From the NCBI GenBank assembly GCA_017457105.1, contig JAFTIA010000104.1:1-64000 (forward strand): a stretch of 64,000 bases of DNA, written 5' to 3'. Under the pieces are notes generated by a model. That model saw nothing but the letters and a program-made list of their open reading frames with translations. It ran no database searches and had not been told where the DNA came from. Shown one piece after another: positions 57,043 to 63,565 of the stretch. Positions within the stretch are counted from its first letter, which is position 1. Each line of letters opens with the position of its first letter. Both the position numbers and the translations under genes were made by a program. The stretch is from Lentisphaeria bacterium (GTDB lineage: Bacteria; Verrucomicrobiota; Lentisphaeria; Victivallales; Victivallaceae).

Positions 57043-58461
57043 ATGGGCGGCTTTTTTGGAGTTGTATCCGACCATGATTGCGTGAGCGATCTTTTTTACG
57101 GAACTGATTATCATTCCCATTTGGGGACCCGCCGGGGCGGGATGGCGGTATCTTCTTCCGGAGGGATCTACCGCAAGATCCATGATATTTCCAGCGTGCC
57201 TTTCCGGGCGAAATTTGATTCGGATATCGACTCTTTCCGGGGCAATGCCGGGATCGGTGTGATCAGTGATACGGAGGATCAGCCGTTGACCATTACTTCC
57301 AAACATGGCACTTATGCCATTGTTACGGTGGGCAAAGTCGGCAACCTGCCGGAATTGGTCTCCAAAATTTTTGCCGAGGGCAATGCACATTTTGCGGAAA
57401 GCTGTGAAGGGGAAATCAATCCCACAGAGCTGATCGCCGCTTTGATCAACCGGGGGAACGATCTGGTGGACGGGATCGTGAAGGCCCAGGAGGCCATCAA
57501 GGGTTCCTGCTCCATGCTGATTTTGCACGATAACTTTGTGTATGCCGCCCGGGACCGTTACGGAAGAACCCCGGTGGAGATCGGCAGGAAAAAGGGGGCG
57601 TACGCCGTCAGTATGGAAAGTTCTGCTTTCCCGAATCTGGATTACACCTTCTGTCACGAACTGGGCCCCGGGGAGATCGTTCAGCTTTCCGCCAACGGCT
57701 TTGAGCAGAAAAAAGCCCCGGGCTGTACGCGGAAATTCTGTACCTTTTTCTGGGTTTATTACGGATACCCCTCTTCCACATACGAAGGCGTCAATTCCGA
57801 ATACGCCCGCTGGCGGAACGGGTCTTCTCTGGCAGAGGGCGATAAAGGGATGGAAATCGACTCTGTGTGCGGGATCCCGGATTCCGGTATTCCCCATGCC
57901 ATCGGGTACTCCTATGCCGCCGGGAAACCTTATTTGCGGACATTTGTAAAATACACGCCCACCTGGACGCGGTCTTTCATGCCCCAAAGTCAGAAGGTGC
58001 GGGAAAATATCGCCCGGATGAAGCTGATCCCGGTGAAAGAATTGATTGCCGGGAAGCGACTGCTTTTCTGTGACGATTCCATTGTGCGGGGGACCCAGCT
58101 CAAAGATACGGTCAAGCGTTTGTATGCAGGAGGAGCCAAAGAGATCCACATGCGTTCGGCCTGTCCTCCTCTGCTGTACGGCTGTCCCTTCCTGAATTTC
58201 TCCCGTTCCCGTTCCGAATTGGATCTGGCTGCCCGCCGTGCCATTGCTGCTCTGGAAAAGGGGGAGATCACTGCGGAAAAGATGGAAAAATACAAGGATC
58301 CGGAATCTGCAGAATACAAGGCTATGGTCGAATACATCCGCAAGGAGTTGAATTTGACCACGCTGAAATATCAGACGCTGGAACGGCTCCTGAATGCCAT
58401 CGGGCAGGATGCGGAGAACGTTTGCACCTATTGCTGGAATGGAAAAGATATTGATGCTTGA
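57043..58461 (+). CDS. PurF-like amidophosphoribosyltransferase homologue lacking the N-terminal cysteine
   Basis: A 472-residue protein with the PurF layout: Ntn glutaminase-like domain (~1-230; GRRGGMAV-like LGTRRGGMAV, GNAGIGVISD, GSCSMLILHD, RDRYGRTPV) and a phosphoribosyltransferase domain with PRPP loop LFCDDSIVRGTQ (~341-352). It starts MGGFFGVVS instead of MCGIxG, so the catalytic N-terminal Cys for glutamine hydrolysis is absent. ATG at 57043 follows AGGAG and no other start restores it. It may use free ammonia, partner with another glutaminase, or have another role. I recall a similar MGGFFG group in Bacteroides but cannot verify it here. Confidence 0.82.
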   Translation: MGGFFGVVSDHDCVSDLFYGTDYHSHLGTRRGGMAVSSSGGIYRKIHDISSVPFRAKFDSDIDSFRGNAGIGVISDTEDQPLTITSKHGTYAIVTVGKVGNLPELVSKIFAEGNAHFAESCEGEINPTELIAALINRGNDLVDGIVKAQEAIKGSCSMLILHDNFVYAARDRYGRTPVEIGRKKGAYAVSMESSAFPNLDYTFCHELGPGEIVQLSANGFEQKKAPGCTRKFCTFFWVYYGYPSSTYEGVNSEYARWRNGSSLAEGDKGMEIDSVCGIPDSGIPHAIGYSYAAGKPYLRTFVKYTPTWTRSFMPQSQKVRENIARMKLIPVKELIAGKRLLFCDDSIVRGTQLKDTVKRLYAGGAKEIHMRSACPPLLYGCPFLNFSRSRSELDLAARRAIAALEKGEITAEKMEKYKDPESAEYKAMVEYIRKELNLTTLKYQTLERLLNAIGQDAENVCTYCWNGKDIDA

Positions 58462-58486
58462 CAAAATATCTCTTCTGTGTTATATT
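58458..58486 (+). promoter_or_regulatory. Promoter of the tig-clpP operon
   Basis: TTGACA (58458-58463), 17 bp, TATATT (58481-58486). The -35 box includes the stop codon of the PurF-like gene. The leader contains a C/G hairpin (TCCCCCTGATCGGGGGA) near 58515. Confidence 0.75.
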
Positions 58487-58572: not shown

Positions 58573-59877
58573 ATGGCCAAGTCATTTGCCGATGCGATTT
58601 CCATGGAAATCCGCTCCGATGTCCCCTGCCGCAAAGATTTTGTGTTCACCGTTTCTCCGGAAGCTCTCCGCAAGGAGTCTGCCCGCGCACTGCAGCGTGT
58701 CGCCATGGCGGTCAATATTCCGGGGTTCCGCCGCGGCAAGGCCCCTGCGGCTCTTCTCCAGAGCAAGTATGCCGGAGACATTGAAAACGAAGTCAAATGT
58801 ATGCTGGTTTACTTCGCTTACGATAAGATCGATGCCGCTGATGCCGGTGAAATGCTGAACTGCAATCTGGAAAAGGATATCCAGATCAGCAAAGATGCGG
58901 ATACTGTTTTCACCATGATCGCTGATATTGCTCCTGAATTTGAAGTGGGCGACTACAAGGCTCTGAAGGTGGATGTTGCCGCTGCGGAAGTCACTGATGA
59001 ACAGGTGGAAGAGCGGGTGAATTTCTACCGCACTATGTATGCCAACTATGCGGAAGTGGCCGAAACTGCCGCCGCCGGGGATATGCTGAAGGTCAATTAT
59101 ACCAGCGATTTCCCGATGCCGGAAGATGCTTCCGCTTCTTTGAAGCGCCAGCTCCAGGCCGAAGACGGCTATGTCTGGTTGAGCGAACCGGAAATCATTC
59201 CGGGCTCCATGGCTGCTCTGACCGGTGTGAAGGCCGGTGATGAACGCACCTTTGATGCTGTTTATGCCGAAGATTACCGCGAAGCCGCTCTGGCCGGCAA
59301 GACCGTGAAGTACACGGTGAAAGTTCTGACCGTCCAGCGCAAGAAGGATCTGACGGACGAAGAACTTTGCAGCAAGACCCAGGCTCCCTCCATGGATGAA
59401 TTCCGCAAGATGCTCCGCACTGCGCTGGAAAATGAAGCCAAGGGCCGCCGTCAGCAGGAACTCTCTGAAAAGATCTACGAAGAACTGGACAAGGCTGTGC
59501 CGCAGTTTGATCTGCCCCCGGCTATTCTGGCCAGCGAAACTTCCCGCGAACTCCGTAAGATCGCCAACGAGCTGGTGAAGAGTGCCGAAGATGCGGAAGC
59601 CTTCCAGAAAGATACCGCCAAGCACAATGAAGCCGCTGGGGAAGCCGCCAAAAAGACGTTGCGCCGCACCTTCATTCTGCGGAAGATCGCCCAGAAGGAA
59701 AACATCACTGTCGGTCAGGACGAAATCAATGCCCAGATCGGTAACATGAGCCGTTACTATGGCTACAAGCCCAACGAACTGCGTAATATGCTGGAAAAGA
59801 CCGGTGGCATGGGCGAATTGGAACTGGATATGATGAACGGCAAGGTGCTGGATTTCCTTGCCGGCATCTGCGGTTAA
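58573..59877 (+). CDS. tig: Trigger factor (ribosome-associated chaperone)
   Basis: A 434-residue protein. The ribosome-binding N-domain carries the signature NIPGFRRGKAP (~48-58). A reduced FKBP-like domain follows (~150-240; GDMLKVNYTSDF), then a helical C-terminal chaperone arm (~260-430). It shields nascent chains at the exit tunnel. Position before clpP and clpX is the classical tig-clpP-clpX order. Confidence 0.93.
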   Translation: MAKSFADAISMEIRSDVPCRKDFVFTVSPEALRKESARALQRVAMAVNIPGFRRGKAPAALLQSKYAGDIENEVKCMLVYFAYDKIDAADAGEMLNCNLEKDIQISKDADTVFTMIADIAPEFEVGDYKALKVDVAAAEVTDEQVEERVNFYRTMYANYAEVAETAAAGDMLKVNYTSDFPMPEDASASLKRQLQAEDGYVWLSEPEIIPGSMAALTGVKAGDERTFDAVYAEDYREAALAGKTVKYTVKVLTVQRKKDLTDEELCSKTQAPSMDEFRKMLRTALENEAKGRRQQELSEKIYEELDKAVPQFDLPPAILASETSRELRKIANELVKSAEDAEAFQKDTAKHNEAAGEAAKKTLRRTFILRKIAQKENITVGQDEINAQIGNMSRYYGYKPNELRNMLEKTGGMGELELDMMNGKVLDFLAGICG

Positions 59878-59906: not shown

Positions 59907-60506
59907 ATGAAAGATGTAAATTCCTATATGGTGCCGATGGTCGTGGAACAGACCGGTTCCGGCGAGCGGGGGTATGATATTTATTCCCGTCTTTTGAAGG
60001 ACCGGATCATTCTTCTGGGGACTCCGATCGATGACGAAGTTGCCAATCTGATCATTGCACAGCTGTTGTTTTTGCAGGCGGAAGATCCCAAGAAGGATAT
60101 TGACCTGTATATCAACAGTCCCGGGGGCAGCGTGACTGCCGGTCTGGCGATTTACGATACCATGCAGATCCTCTCCTGCGATGTCAAGACTTACTGCCTC
60201 GGTCAGTGCGCCTCCATGGGGGCGGTGCTGCTGGCGGCAGGGGCGGCGGGCAAGCGTTATGCGCTGCCTAATTCCCGTATTATGATCCATCAGCCCTGGG
60301 GCGGGGCGCAGGGGACGGCGTCGGATATCAATATTCAGGCCAAAGAGATCCTGCGTTTGCGTACCATGCTCAATGGGATCCTTGCCAATCACACCGGGCA
60401 GACACTGAAGAAGATCGCTTCCGATACGGATCGGGATTTCTTCATGTCCGCTGAAGAAGCAGTTGCTTATCATCTGGTGGATCAGGTTCTGACCCGGGGC
60501 GCATGA
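59907..60506 (+). CDS. clpP: ATP-dependent Clp protease proteolytic subunit
   Basis: A 199-residue serine protease with the catalytic triad Ser103 (CASMGAVLL), His128 (IMIHQP) and Asp173 (SDTDRDFF); the oxyanion loop NSPGGSV is at 70-76. It forms the tetradecameric chamber used with ClpX. It is 29 nt after tig, and a terminator separates it from clpX. Confidence 0.96.
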
Positions 60507-60640: not shown

Positions 60641-61924
60641 ATGAGCAAGTCAAAGATCATTTGTGCTTTTTGCGGGCGGCCGGAATCCAAAAATGTGATG
60701 ATCGCCCGCAGCGGCATTGAGGGCGTGGGGATCTGTACGGATTGCCTGCGTACCGGATATACCAACTTGTGTGCAGAAGAACCTGCGGGCCATGGGAAAG
60801 TTCCGGCAGAGATCCGGGCGCTGATCCGTGATATGCAGCTGCCCAAACCGGCAGATTTGAAGGCCAGTCTGGACAGTTACGTCATCGGGCAGGATCGAGC
60901 CAAAAAAACCTTGGCGGTGGCCGTTTACAATCACTACAAACGCCTCAAGGCCGGGTTGGAGAATGCGGAGGACGAGGCCGACGGTGTGGAGCTGGAAAAA
61001 AGCAATGTTCTGCTTCTGGGGCCCACCGGAAGCGGGAAAACGCTGCTTGCCAAGACCCTTGCCCGGATGCTGAATGTGCCTTTCTGTATTTGCGATGCCA
61101 CGACTCTTACGGAAGCCGGGTATGTGGGCGACGATGTGGAAAATATTCTTCTCCGTCTGGTTCAGGCGGCGGATTACGATGTGGAGCGGGCGCAGATCGG
61201 GATCATTTATGTGGATGAGATCGACAAAATTGCCCGGAAAACGGAAAATGTTTCCATTACCCGTGACGTTTCCGGCGAAGGTGTTCAGCAGGCTTTGCTG
61301 AAGATCCTGGAAGGAACTGTTGCCAATGTGCCGCCGAAAGGCGGGCGCAAACACCCCCAGCAGGAATATTTACAGGTGGATACCTCCAAAATCCTTTTTA
61401 TCTGCGGCGGTGCCTTTGTGGGGTTGGATAAGGTCATCCAGCGGCGGTGCGGCAAGCAGGTTTTGGGGTTCAAACGCCTTGCGGAAGACGGAGCGGACCG
61501 GAAAGCCGAAGCGGATGCCGAAGCACTCCGTACCAATCCTCTTGACTTCTGCGAGCCGGAAGATCTGATCCGTTTCGGTCTGATCCCGGAATTTGCGGGG
61601 CGTCTGCCGGTGATGGTGAATCTTTCCCCGCTGGATCGGGAAGCATTGATCCGGATTTTGACGGAACCCCGCAACTCTCTGGTCCGGCAGTATCAGAAGT
61701 TGATGAAGATGGAGGATGTGGAACTGGAATTTTCGCAGGATGCTCTGGAAGCCATTGCAGACAAGGCGGTGGAACGGGGTACCGGTGCCCGCGGTTTGCG
61801 TGCCATTATGGAAGATCTGATGCTTGATGTCATGTACTCTGTTCCCTCCGAAGGTCCTCTCCGGAAGATCCGGGTGGATGGCGGTGCTGTGCGTGGTGAA
61901 CACGCTCCGGAATTGGTGAAATGA
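60641..61924 (+). CDS. clpX: Clp protease ATP-binding subunit ClpX
   Basis: A 427-residue AAA+ unfoldase: N-terminal zinc finger with Cys8, Cys11, Cys32 and Cys35, Walker A GPTGSGKT (~127-134), Walker [11 protein letters not shown], sensor and pore segment GYVGDD, and a ClpP-docking loop region ahead of [11 protein letters not shown]. It unfolds substrates and feeds them to ClpP. The stop overlaps the next gene's ATG (ATGA), coupling ClpX to a protein kinase. Confidence 0.95.
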
Positions 61925-62991
61925 ACAGTACGGGTATGGCGACCCGAACCGTGACTGCCCGGCCGGATGAGGAAAGCGGATTGGTCAAACCTCCGGATTT
62001 CCGGCAGAAAACGAATCGGCAGTACAAGTTTATCCGGAGCATCGGCTTTGGCGGCATGAAGGCGGTATTGCTTGTTTATGACATGGATACCGGCCGGGAG
62101 GTTGCCATGGCGATGATGCCGGATTTTCAGAACCGCAGTCAGGCGGATTTGAACCGCTTTATGGTCGAAGCCCGGATCACGGCCCGGCTGGAACACCCGA
62201 ATATCATCCCTGTTTATGATATGGGGCTGGATAAGCAGGGGGCTCCCTTTTTTACCATGAAATATTTGCGGGGGGAAAGTCTGGCGCAGTTTCTTCAGCG
62301 TGTTCGGGAAGGCGATCCGCAGGCTGCGGCGGAGTATTCCATGGCTCGGGTTTTGCAAATTTTCATCCGCGTCTGCAATGCCGTCAACTTTGCCCATTCC
62401 CGTAATGTACTGCATTTGGATATCAAGCCCAACAATGTAAGTCTGGGGGATTTCGGGGAAGTTTCGGTGCTGGACTGGGGGCTTGCCGCGGAGATCATTA
62501 TCGGGCCGGATGGCAAACGCCGTTTGCAGCGGCCGGTCAGTAAAGGTACGCCGGGATTTATGTCGCCGGAACAGATCATGGGCGGGACGGAGATGGATGA
62601 ACGGGCAGATATTTATTCTCTGGGGGCCCTGCTTTATACCATGCTGACCTTGCGGAATCCTTTGTGCGGCAAGAGCCCGGATGATATTCTGGAGGCGGCT
62701 ATGCAGGACAGGATCCCGCTGCCGTCGCAAGCGGAGCCGGACCGGGATATTCCGGCGGCATTGGAGGCCGTGGTCCAGAAAGCCATGGCGTTCCGGCCGC
62801 AGGACCGTTATATTTCGGTGCAAGAATTGCGTGACGATGTGGTCAAATTTCAAGCCGGATTTGCTCCGCAGGCGGAAAATGCTTCTTTTTTGCGGCGTGC
62901 GGCGTTATTTATCAACCGCAATTTTGTGGTTACAGTTCTTTTGGGGATCATTGCGGTACTGGTAACGGTATTGGTTTTTGTCCTGCAGTGA
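61921..62991 (+). CDS. Membrane-anchored serine/threonine kinase with WNK-like lysine placement
   Basis: A 356-residue Hanks-type kinase with a C-terminal membrane helix (~333-355, [22 protein letters not shown]), so the kinase domain faces the cytoplasm. Glycine loop IGFGGMKAV (41-49), beta-3 strand EVAMAMM with Ala64 where the ATP-binding Lys belongs, Glu83 in alpha-C, HLD 165-167 with Asn172, DWG 185-187, and SPEQ for APE. Lys47 sits at the glycine-loop position used by eukaryotic WNK kinases instead of the beta-3 Lys, so it may be active. Alternatively it is a pseudokinase. It overlaps clpX by ATGA. Confidence 0.85.
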
Positions 62992-63082: not shown

Positions 63083-63565
63083 ATGGCCGGAGCTGCGAAA
63101 TTTGATAAAAGTCTTTTTACCGCAAATTTCAAGCGGGATTATGTGGCGTTCAGTGCGGTGGCGATTTTTGTTTTGATCGTACTGGCAGAGGTCGGGCTTG
63201 CGGTGAGCATTCCCACCTACTTTGTCCGGTCGAATTTGTGGGAACTGCAGATTGCCCGGCAGGATTTGCTGAAGGATTTTGACAGTTTGCGGGGGCAATG
63301 CAACCGCTTTGTTGGAAAAACACCGGAACTGACCGAAGAAAACAATATTCTTGCATGGAATCTGAATTTGATGTCCAACTATATCCGGATCAACCAGAAA
63401 AAACTTCAAAGAGACGAGGTCCGGAGTTTGAAGGAGGATCTGCAGCAGATGCGGCAGTTGCAGGGGCGGTTGCGCAGCGGGAAGCCGTTCAATCGGCCGC
63501 TGAAATTGAAATCGGAAAAGATCCTTGCATCTTTTCGCAATGAATTGGCCCGGGGAGGGAAATGA
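63083..63565 (+). CDS. Small membrane protein with coiled-coil domain, unknown function
   Basis: A 160-residue protein: cytoplasmic basic N-terminus, one membrane helix (~21-44, FSAVAIFVLIVLAEVGLAVSI), and a periplasmic helical region (~50-140) rich in Leu, Gln and Arg with heptad-like spacing (VRSLKEDLQQMRQLQGRL). GGAGAAGGGAAAA precedes ATG. It overlaps the heptose kinase gene (ATGA), suggesting an envelope role, perhaps with lipopolysaccharide core synthesis; no family is recognised. Confidence 0.7.
   Translation: MAGAAKFDKSLFTANFKRDYVAFSAVAIFVLIVLAEVGLAVSIPTYFVRSNLWELQIARQDLLKDFDSLRGQCNRFVGKTPELTEENNILAWNLNLMSNYIRINQKKLQRDEVRSLKEDLQQMRQLQGRLRSGKPFNRPLKLKSEKILASFRNELARGGK

Follow-up and report, generated by a model that had tools for sequence, protein, structure and literature searches.

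A WNK-like lysine/alanine swap fixed in a large clade of bacterial protein kinases, with a short form encoded next to clpX

Background

In a 2007 survey, the WNK kinases were the sole functional ePK family without the beta-3 lysine (PMC1821047). The lysine of WNK stands at the third-glycine position of the glycine loop, at the start of strand beta-2, with a cysteine in beta-3; it is required for catalysis, and in WNK1 its position has been proposed to permit the binding of a chloride ion (PMC1821047; PMC4718504). A similar shift of positive charge, from PKA position 72 to 55, has been proposed for the CAK-chloro small-molecule kinases (PMC1821047), a different family, which unlike the proteins described here has arginine rather than lysine at 55, methionine at 72, and no helix-C glutamate. 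A review from 2025 that deals with pseudokinase families of bacteria cites WNK and, in the passages covered, describes no bacterial family with such a swap (PMC12599244). Searches of the open literature turned up no earlier account of WNK-like kinases in bacteria.

Here we analyze a kinase gene in a 64,000-nucleotide stretch of a Lentisphaeria contig (this whole stretch is the window). By combining alignments, trees that omit the diagnostic positions, a structure model, and gene order, we arrive at an explanation that we consider quite probable as a whole: the gene would encode a catalytically competent, WNK-like kinase with a relocated lysine of independent origin, its short form likely acting in ClpXP quality control. 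Large, conserved bacterial families with an independent swap would make the beta-3 lysine constraint testable in simple proteins.

Results and discussion

The kinase has 356 residues, of which 35-300 match the Pfam Pkinase domain (PF00069; E 1.4e-37); its 129.9 bits lie above the curated cut-off of 31.7 and place it in that family. The features of the gene are as follows:

61921..62991, + strand: WNK-like (relocated-lysine) Ser/Thr protein kinase gene (ORF, Pfam Pkinase)
62044..62061, + strand: glycine loop GFGGMK, residues 42-47; relocated Lys47 codon at 62059-62061
62101..62112, + strand: beta-3 motif VAMA, residues 61-64; Ala64 codon at 62110-62112
62167..62169, + strand: Glu83, the helix-C glutamate
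62413..62436, + strand: catalytic loop HLDIKPNN, residues 165-172, with catalytic Asp167, Lys169 and Asn172
62473..62484, + strand: metal-binding motif DWGL, residues 185-188
62923..62985, + strand: predicted C-terminal transmembrane helix, residues 335-355 (AF2 model), with one residue after it

The first-pass annotation of the window had pointed to an alanine in the beta-3 sequence EVAMAMM, where the usual catalytic lysine is expected, and to a lysine in GFGGMK; both are seen in the ORF, and alignments with PknB and WNK1 agree. Lys47 occupies the third-glycine position of the loop. Its further claim that loss and gain fall at the WNK1 positions is borne out by a tool alignment with the kinase domain of WNK1, whose sequence was verified against PDB 5w7t; it places Lys47 opposite Lys233 and Ala64 opposite Cys250, with no gap in the interval. 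Against Mycobacterium tuberculosis PknB, Lys47 aligns with a loop serine and Ala64 with the beta-3 lysine.

By sequence and fold alike, the best solved-structure match is PknB. In the AF2 model (pLDDT 89.8), the fold is that of a kinase and closest to that protein, and beta-2 starts at residue 47. Like PknB-type Ser/Thr kinases, the window kinase combines the Pkinase fold with a transmembrane segment after the kinase domain; unlike PknB, which has a beta-3 lysine and outside PASTA sensors, it carries a relocated lysine and lacks any outside domain. The protein ends after the transmembrane helix and has no PASTA repeats; it scores 212.7 bits with the PknB/Stk1 PASTA kinase model (NCBIfam NF033483), for which the cut-off is 450.

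With WNK, the protein shares the place of its lysine (third glycine of the loop, where beta-2 begins), the lack of a beta-3 lysine, and retention of the helix-C glutamate and catalytic residues. It differs in having alanine rather than cysteine in beta-3, HLD and DWG rather than HRD and DLG, and a transmembrane tail; its identity to WNK1 is only 28%, and it is nearer to PknB by sequence and fold and appears apart from WNK in a tree where WNK1 is a very long outgroup branch. By analogy, bacterial proteins of this type should work like WNK at the moved lysine, yet they are not WNKs. In WNK, activation is inhibited by chloride that binds close to the DLG motif. At what we take to be the positions of the WNK chloride pocket, placed through the WNK1 alignment, the window kinase has the hydrophobic residues V98, F111, W186 and L188. 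Comparison with the bacterial kinases could show whether the chloride sensing proposed for WNK is made possible by the moved lysine.

The first-pass annotation had also proposed that Lys47 and Ala64 be checked for co-occurrence. Among 149 distinct kinases with both positions readable, gathered by similarity or Pfam family and with no motif filter, 80 have Lys47 with Ala64 (hereafter K/A kinases) and 69 have Lys64 with glycine, alanine, serine or cysteine at residue 47, while none has both lysines and none has neither; the ratio of 80 to 69 is itself meaningless, many members having been gathered with the family profile, and the result lies in the empty off-diagonal cells. Three genomes of this sample (L197-L226) had initially come to notice by way of a K/A pattern. 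As every Lys47 kinase has Ala64 and every Lys64 kinase lacks Lys47, the pairing is not chance, and homologues that keep a normal beta-3 lysine beside a random residue 47, the pattern named beforehand as contrary to the reading, are not what the sample contains. Every top homologue, from the same family and order and at 37-70% identity, has K47/A64. The Lys/Ala swap is a family trait, fixed in a large bacterial kinase clade. Both types can share a genome: the best 30 of the 105 protein kinase matches in genome G070 comprise 8 K/A kinases, 22 canonical ones and no mixed form. That genome (L274-L303) belongs to the window's class and is 6.0 Mb in size.

Glu83 is kept in all 80 K/A kinases, and Asp167, Lys169, Asn172 and Asp185 show no substitution among them (2 or 3 being unreadable there); all five residues are invariant in a 31-member alignment spanning 37-70% identity. 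The retention of Glu83, HLD, Asn172 and DWG, from which an active enzyme had been argued at first pass, is therefore present in the window kinase and, for Glu83, Asn172 and Asp185, extends across the K/A set. Ratios of dN/dS for four close pairs are 0.05, 0.04, 0.15 and 0.15. The arginine of HRD is replaced by leucine in the window kinase (HLD, residues 165-167) and in most of the window-type K/A clade; together with the change from DFG to DWG, this would imply a regulation unlike that of RD kinases and WNK.

As we picture the mechanism, the lysine that binds the ATP phosphates would no longer stand in beta-3, where Ala64 is found, having been relocated to the third glycine of the loop as Lys47. 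From there, on the expected geometry, Lys47 would reach the alpha and beta phosphates and form a salt bridge with Glu83, and Asp167, Lys169, Asn172 and Asp185 would carry out the usual kinase chemistry.

The same residues could belong to a pseudokinase family, in which the beta-3 lysine was lost and Lys47 was kept to serve a structural purpose or to bind a nucleotide or a partner, with no phosphoryl transfer. A strict definition (no beta-3 lysine) fits, the HRD arginine is also lost in most members, and bacterial pseudokinase families with beta-3 lysine changes exist (PMC12599244). However, of the losses by which pseudokinases are recognized (beta-3 lysine, HRD aspartate and/or DFG aspartate) only the first is found here, with a lysine at the WNK position; Glu83, the catalytic residues and the metal-binding aspartate are unsubstituted, intermediates with both lysines or neither are missing, dN/dS is low, and the families described in the 2025 review mostly lose further motifs too (PMC12599244). 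We regard the pseudokinase reading as improbable. Co-occurrence of Lys47 with Ala64, retention of the catalytic residues and low dN/dS together argue that these are probably active enzymes with a relocated lysine rather than decayed pseudokinases, so that rules based on the beta-3 lysine would wrongly label as pseudokinases a set of kinases that are likely active.

The family profile matches in 197 of 198 genomes of the window's class, a figure that is not a K/A count, as the profile also finds canonical sisters; confirmed K/A members occur in several families of that class and in other families of its phylum. Members of the same type were found in 1 of 199 Planctomycetota genomes, and may have come there by transfer, misplacement or contamination. 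That genome, G693, holds at least eight of them (L191-L196, L225, L226). A second K/A group, with the signature GEGGxKxVYLAxDTxLDRDVAxA, was detected by a DNA pattern in 2 of 201 Chloroflexota and 4 of 237 Myxococcota genomes; it carries the swap at the identical two positions, and differs from the window's group in retaining HRD and DFG and in forming a separate clade. For all K/A sets outside the window's class, the pattern demands both residues, so that these counts speak to presence only and are silent on co-occurrence. A looser pattern was dropped in favor of this stricter one after it matched a non-kinase motif (GFGAAK...PFMAGA) and a reversed control. One member of the second group is fused to AAA_16 and TPR domains. 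Several Chloroflexota copies (L189, L190, L199, L202, L205; genome G463) look truncated or frameshifted.

Plasmid records yielded no K/A kinase in the four regions inspected, three having an ordinary beta-3 lysine and one being unaligned there. Searched on its own against GTDB contigs, the window protein matched distant kinases only.

Trees were built without the diagnostic columns 47 and 64, with WNK1 as outgroup. A single clade of all bacterial K/A kinases was rejected (p-AU 0.0097, and 0.0194 with more members), whereas one clade joining the K/A set of the window's phylum with the Planctomycetota members was not rejected and scored above the free tree. The second group formed one clade with support of 100/99 and lies among ordinary PknB-like kinases with HRD and DFG. 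On this tree evidence, the lysine relocation arose separately in two bacterial lineages, and at least three relocations are indicated if WNK is counted, its independence being judged from the closer similarity of the bacterial proteins to PknB and from the tree, in which WNK1 sits on a very long branch of unsure placement.

A single ancestral relocation, inherited or laterally transferred among the bacterial K/A kinases as a whole, with WNK perhaps included, would explain why both bacterial lineages changed the same two positions and have alanine at 64, and the clade members in one Planctomycetota genome suggest that transfer may happen. Against it, forcing the two lineages together costs about 66 log-likelihood units, and the surroundings of the second lineage are ordinary HRD/DFG kinases; we consider it highly improbable. 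Of the alternatives named at first pass, a convergent or a shared relocation, convergence with WNK thus fits best, and sharing between the two bacterial lineages is rejected. Under separate origins, the relocation would be ancestral to, and fixed in, one large clade (the window's class, other families of its phylum, and one Planctomycetota genome), independent of WNK and of the Chloroflexota/Myxococcota lineage. The canonical sisters L103, L106 and L108, which have HLD with VAMK, suggest that the change from HRD to HLD preceded the move of the lysine; L162 and L163, K/A kinases with HRD, run counter to this order, and branching near the canonical HLD sisters is poorly resolved.

The sole predicted transmembrane helix ends one residue before the end of the protein, there is no outside domain, and the hydrophobic tail is conserved in the 31-member alignment. 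From the model, the kinase looks tail-anchored in the membrane, and we have dropped the receptor-type label that it had been given. Upstream of it are the following features:

58458..58486, + strand: sigma-70-like promoter candidate before tig (11/12 match, extended -10; consensus match only)
58573..59877, + strand: tig (trigger factor), first gene of the tig-clpP-clpX-kinase order
59907..60506, + strand: clpP
60641..61924, + strand: clpX, directly upstream of the kinase gene

The promoter candidate is to be read beside the fact that sigma-70-like matches in the region do not exceed the shuffled background in total count. The kinase ATG overlaps the clpX TGA stop by four bases (ATGA), and likewise in a same-genus locus. 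The order tig-clpP-clpX-kinase, its gene families confirmed, recurs in 17 of 17 same-family loci (L233 having no tig match in the stretch covered), and an 18th short-form locus with this order was reached through clpX (L251).

Gene order adds a candidate link between a Ser/Thr kinase and ClpXP. The short form is likely a Ser/Thr kinase that is anchored in the membrane and linked with protein quality control by ClpXP: tail-anchored and encoded together with trigger factor, ClpP and ClpX, it might phosphorylate ClpX, an adaptor or substrates. Alternatively, the kinase is active and unrelated to ClpXP, the gene order reflecting only co-expression with a housekeeping operon. This we take as a serious possibility, if somewhat short of even: clpP-clpX stands without this kinase in four same-family genomes and in genomes sampled more widely across the class and phylum (in the stretches examined, some ending at a contig edge), and long forms lie elsewhere, though all 18 short-form loci keep the kinase in its place, their kinases being roughly 45-70% identical, and in many of them the genes overlap or lie close together. 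A general role of the K/A clade in ClpXP can be discarded, since linkage to clpX is confined to one family and the long relatives, two of three with leucine-rich-repeat Pfam matches, are not beside clpX. A still broader picture, in which WNK-type relocation is recurrent (at least twice in bacteria, once in eukaryotes) and has in this family produced a membrane-anchored kinase controlling ClpXP, possibly with ion-sensitive activation of the kind proposed for WNK, strikes us, taken as a whole, as rather doubtful.

Just downstream of the kinase, 63083-63565 encodes a predicted protein of 160 residues that has a hydrophobic stretch at its N-terminus and matches nothing in Pfam or NCBIfam; among the loci compared, it recurs only in the same-genus genome (L227). 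Near the N-terminus of the kinase (residues 8-11, window positions 61942-61953), the Thr8 column is more than 90% conserved in same-family homologues, often within a K-T-[RQ]-x-[IL] context. FHA domains prefer Ile or Leu at the +3 position from phosphothreonine, a preference that this context resembles, and Thr8 is a possible autophosphorylation or docking site.
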